Origin: Deltaproteobacteria bacterium
Lineage (GTDB): Bacteria > Desulfobacterota > Deferrimicrobia > Deferrimicrobiales > Deferrimicrobiaceae
Length of the DNA: 64,000 bases
Assembly: GCA_021815305.1 (NCBI GenBank)
Contig: JAKAHC010000007.1
Span: 1 to 64,000, forward strand
Direction of reading: 5' to 3'
A program made the position numbers and the translations under genes. A model generated the notes under the pieces. That model ran no database searches, was not told the origin of the DNA, and saw only the letters and a list, made by a program, of their open reading frames with translations. Below are positions 1,161-13,431 of this stretch, in pieces (position 1 is the stretch's first letter; each line of letters begins with the position of its first letter).

Positions 1161-1474
1161 ATGAGTGAATCTTGCGGAAACAGGTCGGAAGAATGCCCGT
1201 TCCGCGATTTCCCGGAAGATCGTACCCTTGCGGAGAACGAGCTGGCCTTCGTCATCCGGGATGGATATCCGGGATGGATATCCGGTGGGCGAAGGACGCG
1301 GTCAGGGAGGAGGATGCTTCCGTCGTTGGGTTCAACGTCGGGGTGAATATCGGCGAGGCGGCAGGGCAGACGATTTTTCACTGCCATATCCATCTGATTC
1401 CCCGGAGGCGAGGAGACGTGGAAAATCCTCGTGGGGGGATGAGGCACCTCATCCCGGGAAAAGGGAATTATTGA
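1161..1474 (+). pseudogene. HIT-family protein remnant (frameshift and internal deletion)
   Basis: Two halves of a HIT-family hydrolase lie in different frames. The frame starting at ATG 1161 gives CPFRDFPEDRTLAENELAF then IRDGYP, the usual HIT N-terminus. The frame of 1172 (ending at 1474) gives GFNVGVNIGEAAGQTIFHCH plus the histidine triad HCHIH and the tail PRGGMRHLIPGKG. The middle block normally joining them (the PGH..IIP.RH region, about 40-45 residues) is missing. At the junction lies a perfect 13-bp tandem duplication (1258-1283), which itself shifts the frame. The intact histidine triad suggests a recent loss. A short product from the second frame could still be made, but it would lack half the nucleotide-binding fold. 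Confidence 0.7.
1258..1283. repeat. 13-bp perfect tandem duplication in the HIT remnant
   Basis: The unit GGGATGGATATCC occurs twice back to back (1258-1270 and 1271-1283). Because 13 is not a multiple of three, the duplication breaks the reading frame of the HIT remnant. It sits exactly where the conserved middle of the gene is absent, consistent with slippage or recombination at the deletion junction. Confidence 0.85.
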
Positions 1475-1496
1475 CGAATCCCCGGTGCGATAGAAT
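1471..1496 (+). promoter_or_regulatory. Possible sigma70 promoter of fluoride unit 1
   Basis: TTGACG at 1471-1476 and TAGAAT at 1491-1496, about 20 bases before the first fluoride aptamer. The 14-base spacer is short; an alternative -35, TTATTG at 1468-1473, gives a 17-base spacer but matches consensus poorly. A start near 1503 would place the aptamer at the 5' end of the transcript, as expected. Confidence 0.45.
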
Positions 1497-1517
1497 GCAC
1501 TAAGAAGCAAAGCAACA

Positions 1518-1570
1518 GGCGATGGAGTTCGCCGATAACCGCTGTCGTTCGGACGGCCGATGACTCCTAC
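1518..1570 (+). promoter_or_regulatory. Fluoride riboswitch 1 (crcB motif)
   Basis: The sequence contains GGCGATGGAGTTCGCC, then GATAACCGC, a variable hairpin, and CGATGACTCCTAC. This is the conserved crcB-motif fluoride aptamer: the GGCGA/TCGCC stem, the AACCGC junction, and pairing of GGAGT with ACTCC. The 3' end of the aptamer (CTCCTAC) is also the 5' arm of the terminator at 1564-1598, so fluoride binding should prevent termination and switch the downstream genes on. It heads the HAD - HEAT-like - GTPase - MFS unit. Confidence 0.95.
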
Positions 1571-1598
1571 CCGACACCCGTTGGGCAGGAGTTTTTTT
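1564..1598 (+). terminator. Intrinsic terminator, expression platform of fluoride riboswitch 1
   Basis: The arms 1564-1575 and 1580-1591 pair over 12 positions with one mismatch and one G-T pair around a 4-base loop, followed by seven T residues (1592-1598). The 5' arm overlaps the aptamer, giving mutually exclusive folds. Confidence 0.92.
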
Positions 1599-1614
1599 AT
1601 GCGCGGAGGCGTCC

Positions 1615-2085
1615 ATGCTGGAACTTGAAATCCCGGGGTTTGGAACGGTTCGTGCCGAGCATCTGGTATCCGATTTCACGGGGACCCTGGCTGTGGACGG
1701 CAAGCTGCTGTCCGGCGTCGAAGAACGGTTGGCTGCCCTCGCGAAGTTCCTGAAAATCCATGTCGTGACCTCCGACACGCTCGGCGTAGTGCGCTCCGAA
1801 ATGAAAGGATTGCCGTGCGTCCTCCACGTTCTCGCGGGGACCAATCACGACGTGCAGAAAGAGGAGTACGCGAGGAAACTGGATCCCGCCAAGGTGATCG
1901 CCATCGGCAACGGGAAAAACGACCGGAGGATGCTGAAGGCGGCGAGGATCGGGATCGCCGTTTCGGGAGGCGAGGGGTGCGCCGTGGATGCCCTTCTCAA
2001 CGCCGATATCCACGCAAGAAGCGTGGGCGAGGGGCTGGACCTCCTGATGCATACGGAGCGGATGAAGGCGACGCTGCGTTTTTAG
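1615..2085 (+). CDS. Small HAD-superfamily phosphatase, P-type-ATPase-like core
   Basis: Protein of 156 residues, first gene after fluoride riboswitch 1. Motif I is SDFTGTLAVDG with the nucleophile at Asp20, resembling the DKTGT signature of P-type ATPases rather than the DxDxT of most HAD phosphatases. The C-terminal metal motif GNGKNDRRML near residue 98 matches GDGxND of the same group. There are no membrane segments, so it looks like the soluble P-type-ATPase-like HAD proteins (COG4087 type). HAD proteins have been reported as fluoride-riboswitch-associated; substrate and role are unknown. GGAGG at 1605-1609 supports ATG 1615. A reporter-like 9-codon ORF starting at 1599 is ignored. The next gene follows after 69 bases. 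Confidence 0.82.
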   Translation: MLELEIPGFGTVRAEHLVSDFTGTLAVDGKLLSGVEERLAALAKFLKIHVVTSDTLGVVRSEMKGLPCVLHVLAGTNHDVQKEEYARKLDPAKVIAIGNGKNDRRMLKAARIGIAVSGGEGCAVDALLNADIHARSVGEGLDLLMHTERMKATLRF

Positions 2086-2154
2086 AATTGCGCACCGGAA
2101 TCCCCGGGAGGCTGTCCCACCTTGTCTGAGGATCGAGGGGAAGGATCGGCGGGA

Positions 2155-3144
2155 ATGAAAATGGAGAAGATGGATTCGGCCCTGAAGATCGTCGTCCTCG
2201 TCGACCGCCTGAATTCGCTGAAAGAAGGGGAGCTTGCCGTTGCCGATCTTGTGGCGTGCGGCAAGGGAGCTGTCGAGCCTTTGCGGAGGTTCCTGCTTTA
2301 TGGAAAGCCCAGTGGAATCTTTCAGCCGCGGCAGCATGCCGTGGAGGCGCTTGCGGAACTCGGCGCCAAAGAGGTCCTGCTCGAATATCTCACTTTCGAG
2401 AAGCATATCTCCGATCCCGTCGATCGATATGGCGAAGAGGCGGTGGAAAATACCGCGGCGCGAGTCCTTGGGGGTTGGCGTGACGAGGACGTCTATAACG
2501 TCCTCCTGCGGCTCCTGCGCGGGAAGCCGATGCCGGGCGTGATCGAAACCATCGGCGAGTACCGGCGAACCGAGGCGATCCCCGATTTCCTGCGCGCCCT
2601 CGGCGACGACGTTGCCGGTGGCCCCGCGGAAGAAGCCCTGCGGAAAGTCGGGGAACCCGCACGCCGGCCGTTGATGGATGCCGCCCTGACCCCGGTTCCT
2701 TCCGCCGCGGATGAAACCCCTTCCAGCCTGCGCCGTCGCGCTTCCGCCCTGCGTCTTCTCGCCGAACGGAATCTGTCGGCGGAAGACGGACGCAACCTCG
2801 CTGCCCTGACACGCGACCGTGACCCGGAAATCGCCGTGTGTGCGTGCCGGATCGCCCTGCTCGTGGGGAAAGAAAGCTGCCGGCAACTTGCGGTCCGCCG
2901 CTTGGTCGAGGTGCTGCCGGAAGTCGACCTGTTTCTGCAGACGGAGATCGAGGGCTGGCTGTTGCGGCGTTTCGACAGCGCCCGGATCGTTCTCGATGAA
3001 GAGATCGCTCGCCGTCAACCTGCGACGGAGGCCGCCCGATCCCCGGACAAGGTGCTGCTATTCCTGCTTGCCGTGAAACGTAGAGCGGATGCCGAATCGA
3101 GGGATGGTCATGACTCCGGGGGACACCGAAAAACCGGCCGGTAA
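2155..3144 (+). CDS. HEAT-like repeat protein in fluoride unit 1
   Basis: Protein of 329 residues, soluble and helix-rich. It contains repeated alpha-helical units of the HEAT/PBS-lyase type, for example AVEALAELGAKEVLLEYL, ENTAARVLGGWRDEDVYNVLL, IPDFLRALGDDVAGGPAEEA and IAVCACRIALLVGKESC. No catalytic motif is visible. HEAT-like arrays usually bind proteins, so a scaffold or partner of the GTPase encoded next is a reasonable guess. ATG 2155 is preferred because AAGGA lies about 10 bases upstream; an upstream in-frame TTG at 2122 is a weaker alternative. The 3' end overlaps the GTPase gene by 35 bases, a sign of translational coupling. Confidence 0.72.
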   Translation: MKMEKMDSALKIVVLVDRLNSLKEGELAVADLVACGKGAVEPLRRFLLYGKPSGIFQPRQHAVEALAELGAKEVLLEYLTFEKHISDPVDRYGEEAVENTAARVLGGWRDEDVYNVLLRLLRGKPMPGVIETIGEYRRTEAIPDFLRALGDDVAGGPAEEALRKVGEPARRPLMDAALTPVPSAADETPSSLRRRASALRLLAERNLSAEDGRNLAALTRDRDPEIAVCACRIALLVGKESCRQLAVRRLVEVLPEVDLFLQTEIEGWLLRRFDSARIVLDEEIARRQPATEAARSPDKVLLFLLAVKRRADAESRDGHDSGGHRKTGR

Positions 3145-4867
3145 CAGGAAGGAGTGGACGTCCTCGACCGCGCCCCGGAGTTTGTTGCGCGAATACGACA
3201 AGGTCAAACTCGAGCTTGCGGGACTGATCCGGGAGGTCATCGTGCAGGAGACAGCCGACGAGGGTATCCGGAACGAAGGGCAGGAACTGCTGACCCGCCT
3301 GGCGGAGGATCGGTTCAACGTGGCGGTTGTGGGCCGATTCAGTCGCGGAAAGACATCGCTGATGAATGCTGTCCTTGGCTGGGACCGGCTGCCGACGGGA
3401 ATCCTGCCTCTGACTTCCGTGCTCACCAAGGTGCGGTACGGCACCAGAGAACGGGTTCTCGTCTGTTATGCAAACAGTTACATGCCGCAGGAAATTTCCT
3501 TGGAACAGATCCCCGATTACGTTACCCAGGACGGCAATCCCGGGAATCGCAAGGGCGTGGACTATGTGGAGATACAAATTCCCTCCGAGACGCTGCGCCG
3601 GGGGTTCGCTTTCGTGGATACGCCCGGGCTCGGCTCGACCATCGCCGAAAACACCTCCATCACCACCGGCTTCTTCCGGGAAATGGACGCCGTGGTCGTG
3701 GTCACAAGCTTCGAGGCGGCCCTGTCGCAGGAAGAGATGGAGTCCCTCCGCCAAGCGGCGCAGGGGGACAGGAAAACGTTTCTGGTGATCAACAAGCAGG
3801 ATCTCGTCACCGGGGAAGAGCGGGACAAGGTCTTGCGTTACGTTGAGGAGAGGCTCACAGATGAGGTTGGGTCCGCCGGCGCCAGGGTCTTTGCCGTCTC
3901 TGCCCGCGATGGCCTCCATGCCAAGCAGGGAGGGGATGCAATAAAGCTTCGGGCCAGCGGTTTGCCGGAATTCGAACAGGAACTCGTACGCTTTCTCACC
4001 GCCGGGAAAGCGGAAAAGACGCTGACGCTTACCTGCCGACGGCTGCTCGACCTGGTTGCCGGAGCCGGGATTTCTTCGGACGCCGCAATTCCGACGCGGA
4101 TCCGGGAAATTCAAGGGAAGCTTCGGGATGATGGCGGTCAAGAACCCGCTTCCGGGGTTCCAGCTTCCACGGCAGCCTTTCTGCGTTCGGACCAGGCCCG
4201 GCTGGACCGATCGTGCCCCATTTGCGGAGAAGTGATCACACGTGTCTTCGATTTTCTATGCCGGTACCAATACCGGTTGAGCACCAGCCGCGAGGCATAT
4301 TCAGCGCATGCCGCGGACGGTGGATTTTGCGCCATGCATACCTGGCAGTACGAAAAGATCGCCTCTCCTCATGGTGTTTGCACCGCCTATGCGGAATTTC
4401 TTGATACCATGGCCCATCAGCTGCGCAGCGTGGCAGGCAAGGCGGAATCCGTCGCAGACCTTTCCTCGGGCATCGCCCGCTTGGCGATATTGTCCCCGAA
4501 GTGCAAGGCATGCCAGGTGCAAACTTCCGCGGAAGATGATGCCCTTTCAAGGTGGTTGTCCAAGGTGTCCGAGCCCGAAAAAGACGGGCCGCAGGAACTT
4601 CCTCTTCCATGCTTTCTGCATTTTCCTGCGTTCCTGGCGAGGATTACGGATGCGGAACTCGCTCGGACATTGGTGGACCGCCAGGCGGAAGTTTGCGAGA
4701 GAGTATCGGAAAACATGCGGCGCTCCGCCTTGAAGCACGACGCGAAGCGCCGCGCCTTGCTGAGCGACGAAGAAAGGCGTGCGCACCTGCAAGGGCTCAT
4801 GATCCTGGCGGGAGATCGGAGGGTGGCCGCGGCCGGCGCCGAAACGGAGGATCCGTGGCTGGGGTAA
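3110..4867 (+). CDS. Dynamin-like GTPase with C-terminal Cys/His region
   Basis: Protein of 585 residues. G1/P-loop GRFSRGKTS (75-83), possible G2 threonine near 102, G3 DTPGLGS (170-176) and G4 NKQD (228-231) show a complete large-GTPase domain of the bacterial dynamin-like type. The second half is helical. It holds CPIC (369-372), C384, GGFCAMH (C407/H410), C424 and CKAC (465-468), a probable metal-binding region resembling DUF6062-like CPIC..FC..H proteins (from memory). ATG 3110 is preferred because GAGGG ends 6 bases upstream; ATGs at 3089 and 3104 are possible. It is the third gene of the fluoride-riboswitch unit. Known bacterial dynamin-like proteins remodel or protect membranes; a role during fluoride stress is inference. 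AlFx and MgFx are classic transition-state mimics in GTPases. Confidence 0.82.
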   Translation: MTPGDTEKPAGNRKEWTSSTAPRSLLREYDKVKLELAGLIREVIVQETADEGIRNEGQELLTRLAEDRFNVAVVGRFSRGKTSLMNAVLGWDRLPTGILPLTSVLTKVRYGTRERVLVCYANSYMPQEISLEQIPDYVTQDGNPGNRKGVDYVEIQIPSETLRRGFAFVDTPGLGSTIAENTSITTGFFREMDAVVVVTSFEAALSQEEMESLRQAAQGDRKTFLVINKQDLVTGEERDKVLRYVEERLTDEVGSAGARVFAVSARDGLHAKQGGDAIKLRASGLPEFEQELVRFLTAGKAEKTLTLTCRRLLDLVAGAGISSDAAIPTRIREIQGKLRDDGGQEPASGVPASTAAFLRSDQARLDRSCPICGEVITRVFDFLCRYQYRLSTSREAYSAHAADGGFCAMHTWQYEKIASPHGVCTAYAEFLDTMAHQLRSVAGKAESVADLSSGIARLAILSPKCKACQVQTSAEDDALSRWLSKVSEPEKDGPQELPLPCFLHFPAFLARITDAELARTLVDRQAEVCERVSENMRRSALKHDAKRRALLSDEERRAHLQGLMILAGDRRVAAAGAETEDPWLG

Positions 4868-6063
4868 CCCGGAACGGCTGGATCACCAGGAGCGTCATCG
4901 GCATCGGCCTCACCAGCCTCTTCAGCGACATGGGGCACGAGATGGCCACCGCCGTTCTCCCCATGTTCCTTGCCGCCCTCGGCGGGACGGCGGCGACCCT
5001 GGGGCTCATCGAAGGGGTCTCGGACGCCTCTTCAAGCTTCGTCAAGCTCTGGATGGGGCACTACAGCGACCGGATCGGCAGGCGAAAACCCATCGCGGTC
5101 GTCGGTTACGCGATCACCGCGTGCAAAGGACTCCTTGCGGTCGCCGCCAACTGGCACCAGGTGCTCGCCATCAGGACCGTGGCATGGATGGGCAGGGGTG
5201 CCCGGGGACCGGTCCGGGACGCGTTGCTGGCCGACACGGTCGAGCCCGCCTGCTACGGGCGGGCGTTCGGGTTCCACACGGCGATGGACACCACGGGAGC
5301 GGTGATCGGCCCCGCCATCGCGTTCGTGCTGATCGGGGTCGTGAGCTACCGGCAGATCTTCCTCATCTCCGTCGTCCCGGGCGTTCTCTCGGTCGCCTGC
5401 TTTGCGGCGATGGTCAGGGAGCGCGCCCGCAAGCCCGACGGAAATCCGCGCCTCTGGGCGCGGGTCCGCGAGTTGCCTCGCGATTTCAAACTGTTCGTGG
5501 TCAGTGTGGGGATCTTCGGCATGGGGAACTTCGCCCATACGCTCCTGATCCTGCGGGCGATGGAGATCCTTACGCCGGAATACGGGAAAACCGCGGCCGC
5601 GGGGACCGCGGCGGGGCTGTATACGCTCCACAACATCCTCTATGCGGGGGTCGCCTATCCGGCCGGGGTCGTGAGCGAAAGGGTCGGCAAGCGCCCCCTC
5701 CTCGTGGCCGGGTATCTGCTGTTCGCCCTGATGTGCCTGGGGTTTCTCCTCGAACCGCCGCGACTCTGGGCCATGGCCATCCTCTTTTCCCTGGCCGGAG
5801 TCTACATCGCTCTCGTCGATTCCATGGAAAGGGCCATGGCGGGGGACCTCCTCCCCGGACATTTGCGGGGTACGGGGTACGGCTTGATGGCGACGGTGAA
5901 CGGCGTCGGCGATTTCGTCTCCAGCTTCGTGGTCGGGCTCCTCTGGGCCAAGGTTTCCCCCGCGGCGGGTTTTCTCTATGCCGGCGCCCTGACCTTTATC
6001 GGCGGCATCGTGCTTTTCTTGTTGCGGAATACGGGAGGGCCGCGGGAAGCGACGGTTCCATGA
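4855..6063 (+). CDS. MFS transporter, last gene of fluoride unit 1
   Basis: Protein of 402 residues with about 12 hydrophobic segments. The loop between segments 2 and 3 reads HYSDRIGRRKP, the major facilitator motif A. The early segment MGHEMATAVLPMFLAALGG recalls drug-proton or sugar-phosphate-like exporters, but the substrate cannot be read from sequence. GTG 4855 is chosen because GGAGG (4846-4850) precedes it; it overlaps the GTPase stop codon by 13 bases, so the four genes of unit 1 should be co-transcribed from the riboswitch. This is not one of the established fluoride exporters (CLC-F, Fluc). It could export a metabolite that builds up when fluoride blocks enzymes. Confidence 0.83.
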   Translation: MAGVTRNGWITRSVIGIGLTSLFSDMGHEMATAVLPMFLAALGGTAATLGLIEGVSDASSSFVKLWMGHYSDRIGRRKPIAVVGYAITACKGLLAVAANWHQVLAIRTVAWMGRGARGPVRDALLADTVEPACYGRAFGFHTAMDTTGAVIGPAIAFVLIGVVSYRQIFLISVVPGVLSVACFAAMVRERARKPDGNPRLWARVRELPRDFKLFVVSVGIFGMGNFAHTLLILRAMEILTPEYGKTAAAGTAAGLYTLHNILYAGVAYPAGVVSERVGKRPLLVAGYLLFALMCLGFLLEPPRLWAMAILFSLAGVYIALVDSMERAMAGDLLPGHLRGTGYGLMATVNGVGDFVSSFVVGLLWAKVSPAAGFLYAGALTFIGGIVLFLLRNTGGPREATVP

Positions 6064-6118
6064 ACGGAGCGCGCCCGGACTGCGCCGGACTCCCCGAACC
6101 GCGATTGACGGAAATCTC

Positions 6119-6147
6119 TTGCGCATCGAGCGCAACGAAGGTAATAG
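6119..6147 (+). promoter_or_regulatory. Possible promoter of fluoride unit 2
   Basis: TTGCGC (6119-6124), a 17-base spacer and TAATAG (6142-6147) lie 10 bases before the second aptamer. The match is moderate. TTGACG at 6105-6110 is an alternative -35 but too distant. Confidence 0.4.
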
Positions 6148-6156
6148 ATGGAAGCA

Positions 6157-6204
6157 GGCGATGGAGTTCGCCGTGAACCGCCCGAACGGGCTGATGACTC
6201 CTGG
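6157..6204 (+). promoter_or_regulatory. Fluoride riboswitch 2 (crcB motif)
   Basis: The same core as aptamer 1, GGCGATGGAGTTCGCC, then GTGAACCGC, a short CCGAACGGG hairpin, and CTGATGACTCCTGG. The expression platform differs from the other three: no terminator overlaps the aptamer. Instead ACTCC could pair with GGGGGG at 6221-6226, which would act as ribosome binding site for a 29-codon ORF starting at 6229, and a separate hairpin with a T-rich tail follows at 6263-6299. It controls the unit that ends in enolase. Confidence 0.93.
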
Positions 6205-6228
6205 TCGTGGATCTTCGCAAGGGGGGTT

Positions 6229-6318
6229 ATGCCCGTGAGACGGAAACCGTGTGTATCCCGATGCCCGTTGGGAACCTTCCCTGCGGGCGTTTCCTTTTTC
6301 GGGACCGGTGCCGGATAA
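6229..6318 (+). CDS. Possible 29-codon leader ORF after fluoride riboswitch 2
   Basis: ATG 6229 follows AAGGGGGG with a 2-4 base gap and reads MPVRRKPCVSRCPLGTFPAG to a TAA at 6316-6318. The ORF runs through the hairpin at 6263-6288, and its stop overlaps the GTG start (6308) of the next gene. This is the arrangement of a leader peptide or translational coupler. There is no evidence that it is translated, and codon content alone does not decide. No homology is recognised. Confidence 0.3.
   Translation: MPVRRKPCVSRCPLGTFPAGVSFFGTGAG
6263..6299 (+). terminator. Possible attenuator hairpin in the leader of fluoride unit 2
   Basis: GCCCG (6263-6267) pairs with CGGGC (6284-6288); an inner stem GGGAA/TTCCC (6270-6274 and 6277-6281) closes a tiny loop. 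It is followed by TTTCCTTTTT (6290-6299), a T-rich but interrupted tail. It does not overlap the aptamer, so any link to fluoride sensing must be indirect. Confidence 0.5.
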
Positions 6319-6694
6319 GCGCGGCCCAAGGCAGGAACGGTGGGACGCGGCGTCCTCGCGCGCCCGCGAGGAACTCCTGCGCCCCTGTCCCTACCTCGGG
6401 TACGACCACGACCGGATCGGGGTCCACTGCCTCTCCCGCGAGGCGTACGGCATCGCGGAGCGGTCGTTCCGCCGGGCGATCTGGCTCAACCCGTACGAGC
6501 CGGGGTTTCGCCTTCACCTGGCCCACGCGCTCTTCCGGCAGAAGCGGCACGAAGAGGCGTTGGACGTGCTGGACGAGCTGCGGCGGGAACGGCCCGATTT
6601 TCGCCGGGAGCAGGAGTTGCGGGACGCCATCCTGGAGGCGCAGAACGCGGGGAAAGGAGGGGGGGATGCCGGAGAAAGAAGAGGGCGCCCCTGA
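6308..6694 (+). CDS. TPR-like protein, first gene of fluoride unit 2
   Basis: Protein of about 128 residues, starting at GTG 6308 (an upstream in-frame ATG at 6251 would lie inside the leader hairpin and is rejected). It holds the block CPYLGYDHDRIGVHCLSREA and then a TPR-like repeat pair, AERSFRRAIWLNPYEPGFRL and ALFRQKRHEEALDVLDEL. A Cys and His cluster near the N-terminus (CPYLGYDHD..GVHCLS) could bind metal. Function unknown; TPR proteins usually mediate protein contacts. It overlaps the next gene by 29 bases and sits two genes before enolase, so it is expected to be induced by fluoride with it. Confidence 0.6.
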   Translation: MPDKRGPRQERWDAASSRAREELLRPCPYLGYDHDRIGVHCLSREAYGIAERSFRRAIWLNPYEPGFRLHLAHALFRQKRHEEALDVLDELRRERPDFRREQELRDAILEAQNAGKGGGDAGERRGRP

Positions 6695-8427: not shown

Positions 8428-8445
8428 CGCCCGAAATCGAAAAAC

Positions 8446-8498
8446 GGCGATGGAGTTCGCCGATAACCGCTGTCGTTCCGACGGCTGATGACTCCTGC
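8446..8498 (+). promoter_or_regulatory. Fluoride riboswitch 3 (crcB motif)
   Basis: GGCGATGGAGTTCGCC, GATAACCGC, a hairpin with loop GTTC, and GGCTGATGACTCCTGC match the crcB consensus and are nearly identical to aptamer 1. The CTCCTGCCC end forms the 5' arm of the terminator at 8492-8526. It heads the unit holding the fluoride channel gene crcB, the most typical partner of this riboswitch. Confidence 0.96.
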
Positions 8499-8526
8499 CC
8501 GATATCCATGGGGCAGGGGTTTTTTT
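8492..8526 (+). terminator. Intrinsic terminator, expression platform of fluoride riboswitch 3
   Basis: 8492-8500 pairs with 8511-8519 over nine positions (one G-T pair) with a 10-base loop, then seven T residues (8520-8526). The 5' arm is shared with the aptamer, so ligand binding should relieve termination. Confidence 0.92.
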
Positions 8527-11096: not shown

Positions 11097-11105
11097 TCAG
11101 AGAGA

Positions 11106-11159
11106 GGCGATGGAGTTCGCCGAAAACCGCCAGTCTTTCCGACGGCTGATGACTCCTGC
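11106..11159 (+). promoter_or_regulatory. Fluoride riboswitch 4 (crcB motif)
   Basis: GGCGATGGAGTTCGCC, GAAAACCGC, a hairpin with loop CTTTC, and GGCTGATGACTCCTGC. The core is identical to the other three, while the variable hairpin differs, so these are not merely a recent tandem copy. The ACTCC of the aptamer pairs with GGAGT of the terminator at 11152-11187. It controls a Cys-rich protein and a dynamin-like GTPase, with no exporter in the unit. Confidence 0.95.
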
Positions 11160-11187
11160 GATTCCCATGCGTTCGCCGGAGTTTTTT
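11152..11187 (+). terminator. Terminator of fluoride riboswitch 4; its 3' arm includes the ribosome binding site
   Basis: ACTCC (11152-11156) pairs with GGAGT (11178-11182), extended inward by four more pairs after a mismatch, followed by six T residues (11182-11187). The GGAG of the 3' arm lies 7 bases before ATG 11189 and is the only ribosome binding site for that gene. The off-state hairpin would therefore both stop transcription and hide the ribosome binding site. Confidence 0.85.
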
Positions 11188-11188
11188 C

Positions 11189-11758
11189 ATGTCCGATTCC
11201 CCATGCCTTCCGGCCTGCAGTTACCGGCGCATGGCGCGGTGCGGGCCGGGTTTCCCCCCGCATTACGTGTGCGGCTGTTCCGGCGGGATCCCGATCGGCA
11301 CGGTGGGGGAAGAGTCATCCCTCCTCGCGGAAACGTGCGGGCCGTGCGACATTCCCCCCGAACTGTCCCCCGTACGCCGCCGGTGCCTTTTCCTGGTTCC
11401 CGTGCGCCTCTGGGAGGGGGGATCTCTCCATACGGGTTTCTCCTGCCGTTGGTTCTACGCGCTGAAACCGGAATCGCTTCCGGGAGAGGTGTGGCAGGTT
11501 TGCCTCGGCTGCCCCCACTGGTTTCCCCGTCCGGAGAACGAGGCCGACATCCCGGGAATGGACGCCTGGATCTTCAGGGTCCTCCAGGCGTACCGGGAGC
11601 CGGAGCCTGTCACCGTGTCCTCGTGGAAGACCCGCCCCGTCGACGTCCCATCGACATGGGCGGAGTCGGCGATGGAGCGCATCGGGAGGTGGATGGAGGT
11701 CCTGTTTCCGGACGGAGGAGTGACACGACGTTTCCGAAAGGGGCATGACACGCGATGA
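11189..11758 (+). CDS. Cys-rich protein of unknown function, fluoride unit 4
   Basis: Protein of 189 residues, starting immediately after the riboswitch terminator. It has 14 Cys, several in pairs: VCGCSGG, ETCGPCD and VCLGCPHWFP, plus CLPAC near the N-terminus. This suggests one or two bound metal ions or an iron-sulfur cluster. No signal peptide or membrane segment is seen. The C-terminal third is acidic and Trp-rich (AWIFRVL, SSWKTRP, RWMEVLFP). I do not recognise the family. It overlaps the following GTPase gene by four bases (ATGA), so the two are translationally coupled. The pairing of a Cys-rich moiety with a dynamin-like GTPase is mirrored in unit 1, where both are in one polypeptide. 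Confidence 0.68.
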   Translation: MSDSPCLPACSYRRMARCGPGFPPHYVCGCSGGIPIGTVGEESSLLAETCGPCDIPPELSPVRRRCLFLVPVRLWEGGSLHTGFSCRWFYALKPESLPGEVWQVCLGCPHWFPRPENEADIPGMDAWIFRVLQAYREPEPVTVSSWKTRPVDVPSTWAESAMERIGRWMEVLFPDGGVTRRFRKGHDTR

Positions 11759-13431
11759 TCACGGACGATGCGAAGGGTTGGGTGGCCGACGCCGTCGACC
11801 GTGTCGGTGTGCTCTGCCGCCGTTTCCGGGTCGAATCCCTCGCGCCGCAGCTTGCAGCCTGCGAGGAGTTGCTGCTTGACGGAGGGGTGGTGGACGTTGC
11901 CGTGCTGGGACAGTTCAAGGCGGGGAAGAGCTCGTTCCTCAACGGTCTGATCGGCGGCGCCGTCGTCCCGGTGGATGTCCTGCCGTCCACGGCCGTGGTC
12001 ACCCGGATCGGGCGCGGACCCAGGGAGCGGGTCCTGGTCCACGGCCTTGCGGGCGATACGTTCGAGATTCCCCTGGCCCGGCTTGCCGAGTTCGTTACGG
12101 AGCGGGGGAACCCCTCGAACGAAAAGCGGGTGTCGGTGGTCGACGTGGAGCTGCCCGCCCTCGCCGCGTACGAGGGGATCCGGTTCGTCGATACGCCGGG
12201 CCTGGGCAGCGCCTTCGCCCATAACACGAAGGTATCGAAGGATTGGATGCCCCGCGTGGGGGCCGCCCTCGTCGCGGTCAGCGTCAACCATCCCCTTTCC
12301 GAAGACGACCTTCTGCTCCTTTCCGACGTGTCCTCGCAGACTCCCGAGGCGGCCATCCTGTTGACGAAGGCGGACCTGGTGTCCGGGGAGGAACTCGCCT
12401 CGGTGATCGATTTCACCCGGAGCCAGGCGACGTCCCGGACGGGGAAGGAGTGGAGGATTCTCCCCGTGTCCAACCGTCCCGGCTTCGAGGGGACGCGTGC
12501 GGAGGTGGAAGAATTCCTGCGGGAACGGATCTCGGGACGGCGCAAGGAGGCATACGAGGCGATCGCGCGCCACAAGGTCCTGGGGCTCGTTGCATCGTGC
12601 CGGGAGTACCTCCTCCTGGCGCAGCGGGCGGCGGCCGCGGCCGGAGCGGCCCGGGAGGAACTCCTCGCGGCGCTGGCGAGGGAGCGCGGCGACATCGGGC
12701 CGGTTCTGGGGGAGATCCGTTTCTATTGCCGCAACCTGAAGGCGGAGGTCCGCACGGCGGCGGACGAGCGGTTCCACGCATATCACCGCGAGGTGGCCGC
12801 GCGGCTCACCGGCGATCTCCTTCGGGCGATGCCGGAGTGGAAGGGGAACCTCGCCCGGGTTACGCGCGCGTTCGAGGCGTGGCTTGCCGACGGGATGATG
12901 GAGGAGATGGGGGCCGTATCGCTGCACGGGGAGGCGCACCTGGCGGGGTTTCTCTTCAAGGCGCGGGCCAGCGTCTCCCGTTCCGTCCGGGCGTTCCAGG
13001 ACCGGCTGGCCAAGGAGATCGAGCGCGCCTTCGGGATCCGATTCGCCGGGGCGAGCTTCGATGCGCAGGTAGAGGAGCCGTCCCACCCCGACGTCCGGCT
13101 CTCCCCCACCTTCGACACCCACTTCGAACTCCTCTGGTTCCTCATTCCCATGCCCGTCTTCCGTCCTCTCGTGCGACGCCATTTCCTGCGTCGGATCCCG
13201 TGGGAGGTGGAGAAGAACCTCTCCCGTGTGGCGGCCCAGTGGGCCGACGCCATGGGCGGAGTCATCGACGGGCTCGCCCGGGACGCTTCGGAGTTCCTCG
13301 AAAAGGAACTCGCCACGATCGAAGGGCTGGTAGGCGCCCCCGGCGCGTCCGCCTCCGGCGTCGAGGAGATCCGCGCCGCCCTGGCGGAGCTGGCGTCGCT
13401 CTCCCCGGGAAGCCACGCGGAGGACGCGTGA
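11755..13431 (+). CDS. Second dynamin-like GTPase, fluoride unit 4
   Basis: Protein of 558 residues. G1 GQFKAGKSS (52-60), Thr79 as likely G2, G3 DTPGLGS (146-152), G4 TKAD (204-207). Long helical stalk-like regions follow, with many Ala/Glu/Arg heptads. Near residues 455-480 a hydrophobic-aromatic stretch, WFLIPMPVFRPLVRRHFLRR, may insert into or lie on a membrane like the paddle of bacterial dynamin-like proteins; the following PWEVEKNLSRVA is, from memory, common in such proteins. No Cys-rich domain is present, unlike the GTPase at 3110, but its partner gene supplies one. It ends unit 4; ilvD has its own promoter. Confidence 0.86.
   Translation: MITDDAKGWVADAVDRVGVLCRRFRVESLAPQLAACEELLLDGGVVDVAVLGQFKAGKSSFLNGLIGGAVVPVDVLPSTAVVTRIGRGPRERVLVHGLAGDTFEIPLARLAEFVTERGNPSNEKRVSVVDVELPALAAYEGIRFVDTPGLGSAFAHNTKVSKDWMPRVGAALVAVSVNHPLSEDDLLLLSDVSSQTPEAAILLTKADLVSGEELASVIDFTRSQATSRTGKEWRILPVSNRPGFEGTRAEVEEFLRERISGRRKEAYEAIARHKVLGLVASCREYLLLAQRAAAAAGAAREELLAALARERGDIGPVLGEIRFYCRNLKAEVRTAADERFHAYHREVAARLTGDLLRAMPEWKGNLARVTRAFEAWLADGMMEEMGAVSLHGEAHLAGFLFKARASVSRSVRAFQDRLAKEIERAFGIRFAGASFDAQVEEPSHPDVRLSPTFDTHFELLWFLIPMPVFRPLVRRHFLRRIPWEVEKNLSRVAAQWADAMGGVIDGLARDASEFLEKELATIEGLVGAPGASASGVEEIRAALAELASLSPGSHAEDA

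Follow-up and report, generated by a model that had tools for sequence, protein, structure and literature searches.

The window analysed here is the first 64,000 nucleotides of contig C1 (JAKAHC010000007.1) from a deltaproteobacterial genome of 2.77 Mb. This genome contains five fluoride riboswitches, and four of the five fall inside a 9.7-kb stretch of the window. Downstream of riboswitch 1 lie four genes predicted to encode a small HAD protein, a HEAT-like protein, a dynamin-like GTPase and a transporter of the major facilitator superfamily (MFS). The riboswitch, the genes and the domains of the GTPase are as follows.

1509–1576, + strand: fluoride riboswitch 1, RF01734 aptamer (55.6 bits, E 1e-12, against a gathering score of 34)
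1562–1598, + strand: terminator hairpin followed by T7, overlapping the 3' end of the aptamer (minimum free energy -19.6 kcal/mol, z -5.5)
1615–2085, + strand: soluble P-type-ATPase-like HAD protein, 156 amino acids (D20 in DFTGT, T52, K82, GNGKND at 98–103)
2155–3144, + strand: HEAT-like alpha-solenoid protein, 329 amino acids (HEAT_2 7.6e-6)
3110–4867, + strand: dynamin-like GTPase with a fused Cys/His domain, 585 amino acids (Dynamin_N 1.9e-25; tree)
3287–4039, + strand: G domain of the GTPase, motifs intact (GRFSRGKT, DTPG and NKQD as G1, G3 and G4)
4205–4864, + strand: Cys/His domain, the last 220 residues of the GTPase (CxxC C369/C372, CxxH C407/H410, CxxC C465/C468, CxxH C501/H504)
4855–6063, + strand: MFS transporter, 402 amino acids, GTG start (MFS_1 1.1e-40, 140.1 bits against a cut-off of 33.4)

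The aptamer of the fluoride riboswitch binds fluoride together with Mg2+, upon which expression goes up (PMC11139923). At riboswitch 1, the 3' strand of the aptamer is shared with a terminator hairpin that ends in seven T, and because this strand pairs into the terminator the arrangement fits an ON switch. The HAD stop and the HEAT start are separated by 69 bases, while the HEAT and GTPase frames overlap by 35 bases and the GTPase and MFS frames by 13. This is the same tight spacing that an earlier note, made from the sequence alone, had described. Purine-rich sites resembling ribosome-binding sites precede the starts of the HAD (GGAGG), GTPase (GAGGG) and MFS (GGAGG) genes. Scanning positions 1380–6350 for sigma-70-like promoters gave none, but this consensus scan gives none for the operon itself either and so carries little weight against internal promoters. 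The layout supports reading the four genes as a single unit led by the riboswitch, which almost certainly belongs to the fluoride regulon as judged from its sequence. With known operons of the fluoride riboswitch (crcB motif, RF01734) it shares the aptamer, the terminator-type ON platform and neighbours such as CrcB, a Na+/H+ exchanger, Usp, enolase, HAD and MutS-type genes.

What goes beyond the earlier note is the nature of the GTPase, which is dynamin-like, carries the Cys/His domain and is a member of a widespread riboswitch-linked family. The closest solved structures for its G domain are 5owv, 2j68 and 6j72, and the G motifs are unbroken in 84 of 86 dynamin-like proteins. All four Cys/His pairs are kept in 7/7 aligned copies, a conservation that suggests two metal sites, possibly a double zinc site. 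The bacterial dynamin-like proteins BDLP, DynA, IniA and the Campylobacter DLP pair (~550–870 amino acids) share the G domain with the window GTPase; the latter differs in lying under a fluoride riboswitch and in having a Cys/His domain where a full stalk and paddle would apparently be expected. A short linker joins its two domains, and outside the Cys/His domain there is no strong hydrophobic stretch.

In the tree, the window GTPase groups with two Paraburkholderia proteins and one protein from a Lichenicola plasmid (support 100/99). The sister of this clade consists of the proteins from G381 and G399 (91/94), and in the set examined the Cys/His motif is limited to these six. At ~870 amino acids, the proteins of G381 and G399 exceed the window type in length, and they have a stalk region between the G and Cys/His domains, with a clear hydrophobic stretch in G381.

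The window GTPase and RF01734 were each searched against 395 genomes of the phylum, three proteobacterial loci were added, and the loci were rescanned with a covariance model built from 23 aptamers. We counted 85 full-length dynamin-like genes, including the two of the window, two from Paraburkholderia and one from the Lichenicola plasmid. A fluoride riboswitch lies on the same strand at most 3.5 kb upstream of 72 of the 85 and at most 500 nt upstream of 61, counts that are not independent since the genomes are related and mostly from one phylum. By our estimate, chance would place ~0.004 dynamin-like genes within 500 nt, given fewer than one riboswitch per ~3-Mb genome. Seen from the riboswitch side, 54 of 84 GTPase matches in the 395 genomes follow, on the same strand and at no more than 3.5 kb, a riboswitch among the 150 with the best scores. 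Because the query GTPase is itself riboswitch-linked, the search is biased towards the query's own subfamily. Seven more distant dynamin-like genes from the phylum served as a control; none had a riboswitch within 1.5 kb, which confines the fluoride link to one subfamily and does not extend it to all bacterial dynamins. Linkage is present in several dynamin-like subclades of the tree, and on the Lichenicola plasmid the dynamin-like gene is divergent from a riboswitch-led crcB gene. Sixty riboswitch loci lacked a listed GTPase. The gene next to the riboswitch there encodes a Na+/H+ exchanger in 20 cases, an exchanger of a second type in 6, CrcB in 12 and other proteins in the rest; these loci contained three further dynamin-like genes.

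Some riboswitch-linked loci have additional features. In L124 (4015–6612) and similar loci a membrane pyrophosphatase-like gene (865 amino acids), named by eye, follows directly on the riboswitch-led dynamin gene, and homologs of it occur near dynamin in 8 loci. The first gene after the riboswitch in L194 (172–1176) appears by eye to be the C-terminal half of a dynamin lacking the G domain.

The Cys/His domain also occurs alone in fluoride loci, as proteins of 224 amino acids in L139 and L143, and a 546-amino-acid protein directly downstream of the riboswitch in L198 contains two copies. Protein P0014 (448 amino acids, Paraburkholderia), which has relatives on Burkholderia plasmids, matches the domain with a profile probability of 95.6%. 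Fused to the GTPase in some fluoride loci and encoded apart from it in others, the domain may be a working partner of the GTPase. A small Cys/His-rich protein beside dynamin on a Burkholderia plasmid (L241, 18966–19682) was tested as a possible split version; its homology to the window domain is not significant, and we make no such claim for that plasmid. The Cys/His proteins of L006 match DUF6062 (PF19538) weakly, under the Pfam cut-off, and the window GTPase had no match to this family in the Pfam scan. A small AAA/STAND-like ATPase gene adjoins the stand-alone Cys/His gene in two loci (L175, 6805–7455; L143, 4473–5180).

The HAD protein matches the P domains of P-type ATPases as well as HAD phosphatases (Pfam Hydrolase_3 8.1e-6; NCBIfam ATPase_P-type 2.1e-7, under its cut-off). 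These matches and its DFTGT motif bear out the P-type-ATPase-like label given in the earlier note. It has neither the transmembrane nor the actuator domain of those pumps and consists of the 156-residue soluble protein only. Ten aligned homologs keep D-[FYL]-[TN]-G-T, the Lys of motif III and the GNGxND of motif IV; with this form of motif I, none of the ten has the second Asp that phosphatases usually carry. We take the protein to resemble the soluble P-type-ATPase-like proteins of the MJ0968/COG4087 type. It has in common with soluble P-type-like HADs the DxTGT-type motif I and a small single domain, and differs from them by the fluoride riboswitch upstream. About a quarter of 59 relatives have full-length homologs. 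HAD genes lie directly downstream of fluoride riboswitches in L167, L168 and L241: in Paraburkholderia (L167, L168) these are the orthologs of P. oxyphila and P. caffeinitolerans, and on a Burkholderia multivorans plasmid (L241) it is a 'hypothetical protein' with 43% identity to the window HAD, followed by a pyrophosphatase gene. The presence of HAD genes near fluoride riboswitches, mentioned in the earlier note, is documented in PMC11139923.

The second protein matches HEAT_2 with 26.6 bits, just short of the cut-off of 27.7. A structural model was all-helical at low confidence, and a fold search returned solenoid repeats only, none at E <= 0.001. Strong homologs are limited to G293, G381 and G399, in each case within a fluoride island, two of them convergent beside a Cys/His dynamin gene and the third beside enolase.

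For the MFS protein, the top matches are models of the drug/H+ antiporter type and NorA, all of them weak. NorA, an MFS drug/H+ antiporter, is its nearest solved relative (5e-10) but a distant one, and the family of the window protein recurs in fluoride loci. Relatives occur in 13 of the 60 riboswitch loci without a listed GTPase, twice as the first gene and in two cases as short open frames, and a B. multivorans fluoride island holds an MFS protein that is 40% identical. Proteins with GGFG-type repeats, by eye prenyltransferase-like, are encoded close to a fluoride riboswitch, with an MFS gene or CrcB following (L187, 607–1374; L215, 577–1341).

Our best reading is that the operon may be a fluoride-inducible envelope-protection module, whose membrane mechanism we infer. 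Without fluoride, the terminator overlapping the aptamer would halt transcription; binding of fluoride and Mg would stabilize the aptamer and allow the four-gene message to be made. The bacterial dynamin-like proteins DynA and IniA act in membrane stress (PMC8844932). The window GTPase with its Cys/His domain could work at the cytoplasmic membrane, keeping it intact under membrane-permeant hydrogen fluoride and acid stress. That it is a dedicated fluoride-response membrane protein is a tentative proposal to which we give slightly under an even chance, and the same holds for regulon membership and a membrane role taken jointly. The HEAT protein might serve as a scaffold aiding the GTPase, the MFS protein might export or exchange an ion or metabolite made harmful by fluoride stress, and the HAD protein might be a phosphatase or phosphate-transfer enzyme handling a phosphoester; each of these three roles is speculative and, taken singly, unlikely. 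The more specific proposals of the earlier note, that the HEAT protein could be an adaptor between GTPase and membrane and that the MFS protein could export a metabolite from glycolysis or from blocked phosphatases, are likewise speculative.

Several observations weigh against this reading. Compared with its G381 relative, the window GTPase seems to be missing both the long stalk and a clear hydrophobic paddle, so that a contact with the membrane is not evident. AlphaFold models of the GTPase (from a three-sequence alignment) and of the HEAT protein were poor (mean predicted local distance difference test scores of 50 and 61) and were not used to assign function. The HEAT protein is rare, and seven HAD homologs inspected in the phylum had no riboswitch within 1.5 kb. 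Finally, the order HAD-HEAT-GTPase-MFS, for which the earlier note had proposed a search, is unique to this genome among the loci compared; all four families recur in other fluoride-riboswitch loci.

Two alternatives compete most seriously with this reading: that the cell compensates for inhibited enzymes, and that metal fluorides trap the GTPase directly. Under the former, the GTPase and HAD would be overmade since MgF3-, AlF4- and BeF3- lock phosphoryl-transfer enzymes by mimicking the transition state, an idea already put forward for enolase and pyrophosphatase. The company kept in fluoride islands is in line with this, as enolase and pyrophosphatase occur there together with HAD, MutS-type and AAA/STAND ATPases, and overproduction of phosphatases is discussed in PMC11139923. 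However, the GTPases concerned are dedicated and riboswitch-adjacent, unlike housekeeping GTPases, which fluoride should affect as well, and the special Cys/His fusion indicates a specialized job; we regard compensation as unlikely, if the strongest of the alternatives. The latter explanation holds that fluoride traps the GTPase as GDP-MgF3/AlF4 and so drives its assembly on the membrane, which would have fluoride acting on both RNA and protein. The intact G motifs would permit this, and the G-domain dimer of the dynamin-superfamily protein GBP1 forms with GDP and aluminium fluoride, according to work cited in PMC2862293. Many GTPases can be trapped in this way in vitro without the cell having to make use of it, and we consider this explanation improbable. 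We think no better of its extended form, in which dedicated fluoride-response dynamins would have their membrane assembly set by fluoride through GDP-metal-fluoride trapping together with the riboswitch, and the metal-binding Cys/His domain would provide a second input.

Three further explanations were considered. The GTPase and MFS genes could be passengers with a fluoride-independent promoter of their own, and non-consensus promoters can escape promoter scans; the overlap of the genes and the position of the same families directly downstream of riboswitches elsewhere make this very improbable. Vertical inheritance of the association within one clade, without functional meaning, would explain counts drawn mostly from one phylum, but linked members occur in Paraburkholderia, the Lichenicola gene is divergent from a riboswitch-led crcB, and several subclades share the linkage, so that we give this account hardly any weight. 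We also considered and rejected a phage-defence or Leo-like toxin-secretion component that merely happens to be located in the island. Its basis is a weak PADLOC match to LeoA (5e-13) that is partial, not full-length, and has its best stretch in the G domain; the other three operon genes have no PADLOC match, and the linkage to fluoride riboswitches extends across dozens of genera.

The remaining riboswitches of the window and a second dynamin-like gene lie downstream of the operon.

6148–6210, + strand: fluoride riboswitch 2, opening the next unit, with enolase (57.2 bits)
8437–8504, + strand: fluoride riboswitch 3, unit of Na+/H+ exchanger, Usp and CrcB (58.7 bits)
11097–11165, + strand: fluoride riboswitch 4 (56.3 bits)
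11755–13431, + strand: second dynamin-like GTPase, 558 amino acids, with a hydrophobic paddle-like stretch, downstream of riboswitch 4 (Dynamin_N 1.8e-16; tree, hydropathy)

The subfamily of the second GTPase is common downstream of fluoride riboswitches in near relatives. An AbiEii-like nucleotidyltransferase gene (422–1096) adjoins the fluoride cluster, and a partial HIT-domain frame is found at 1172–1474. The fifth riboswitch of the genome (C13:179172) lies upstream of a gene for a 546-amino-acid MutS_V-domain protein (L169, 7174–8896), in agreement with a link between mutS and this riboswitch that was reportedly noted in 2010.

Larger fluoride islands are found in Burkholderia and Paraburkholderia. 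Two Burkholderia plasmids (L241, NZ_CP143553.1; L242, NZ_CP073707.1), one of them typed conjugative, carry ~30-kb islands with nine fluoride riboswitches each. Their genes include two enolases, pyrophosphatases, CrcB, MutS-type genes, a Nuo/Hyf-like complex and dynamin; HAD was confirmed on L241 and a chloride-channel-family gene on L242. Between crcB and an MFS gene, the B. multivorans island (L241) encodes a cyclopropane fatty acid synthase (3079–4278), which would suit a role at the membrane but is no proof of one. The Paraburkholderia genomes L167 and L168 have 9 and 7 fluoride riboswitches, most of them in one island with tandem enolases.

Defence against fluoride has so far been described in terms of export, of balancing pH and phosphate, and of additional copies of the enzymes that are inhibited. 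The accounts of fluoride loci covered by our search list exporters and Na+/H+ antiporters along with pyrophosphatase, HAD, enolase, formate hydrogen lyase and mutS; none of them mentions a dynamin-like GTPase, the Cys/His domain, the HEAT protein or the present MFS family. Our literature search found no paper joining dynamin, riboswitch and fluoride; it did not cover the 2012 riboswitch discovery paper and its supplement, where an unhighlighted listing is possible. The dynamin-like GTPase thus appears to be a widespread and so far unreported component of a known regulon. It is a very common gene downstream of fluoride riboswitches across the phylum and is found near them in Proteobacteria and on plasmids too. 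The question lends itself to simple knock-outs and fluoride induction. The recurrent link between riboswitch and GTPase suggests that the entry of fluoride prompts bacteria to protect or reshape their membrane. If true, membrane remodelling would join the list of fluoride defences, and a group of orphan bacterial dynamins would gain a physiological role.

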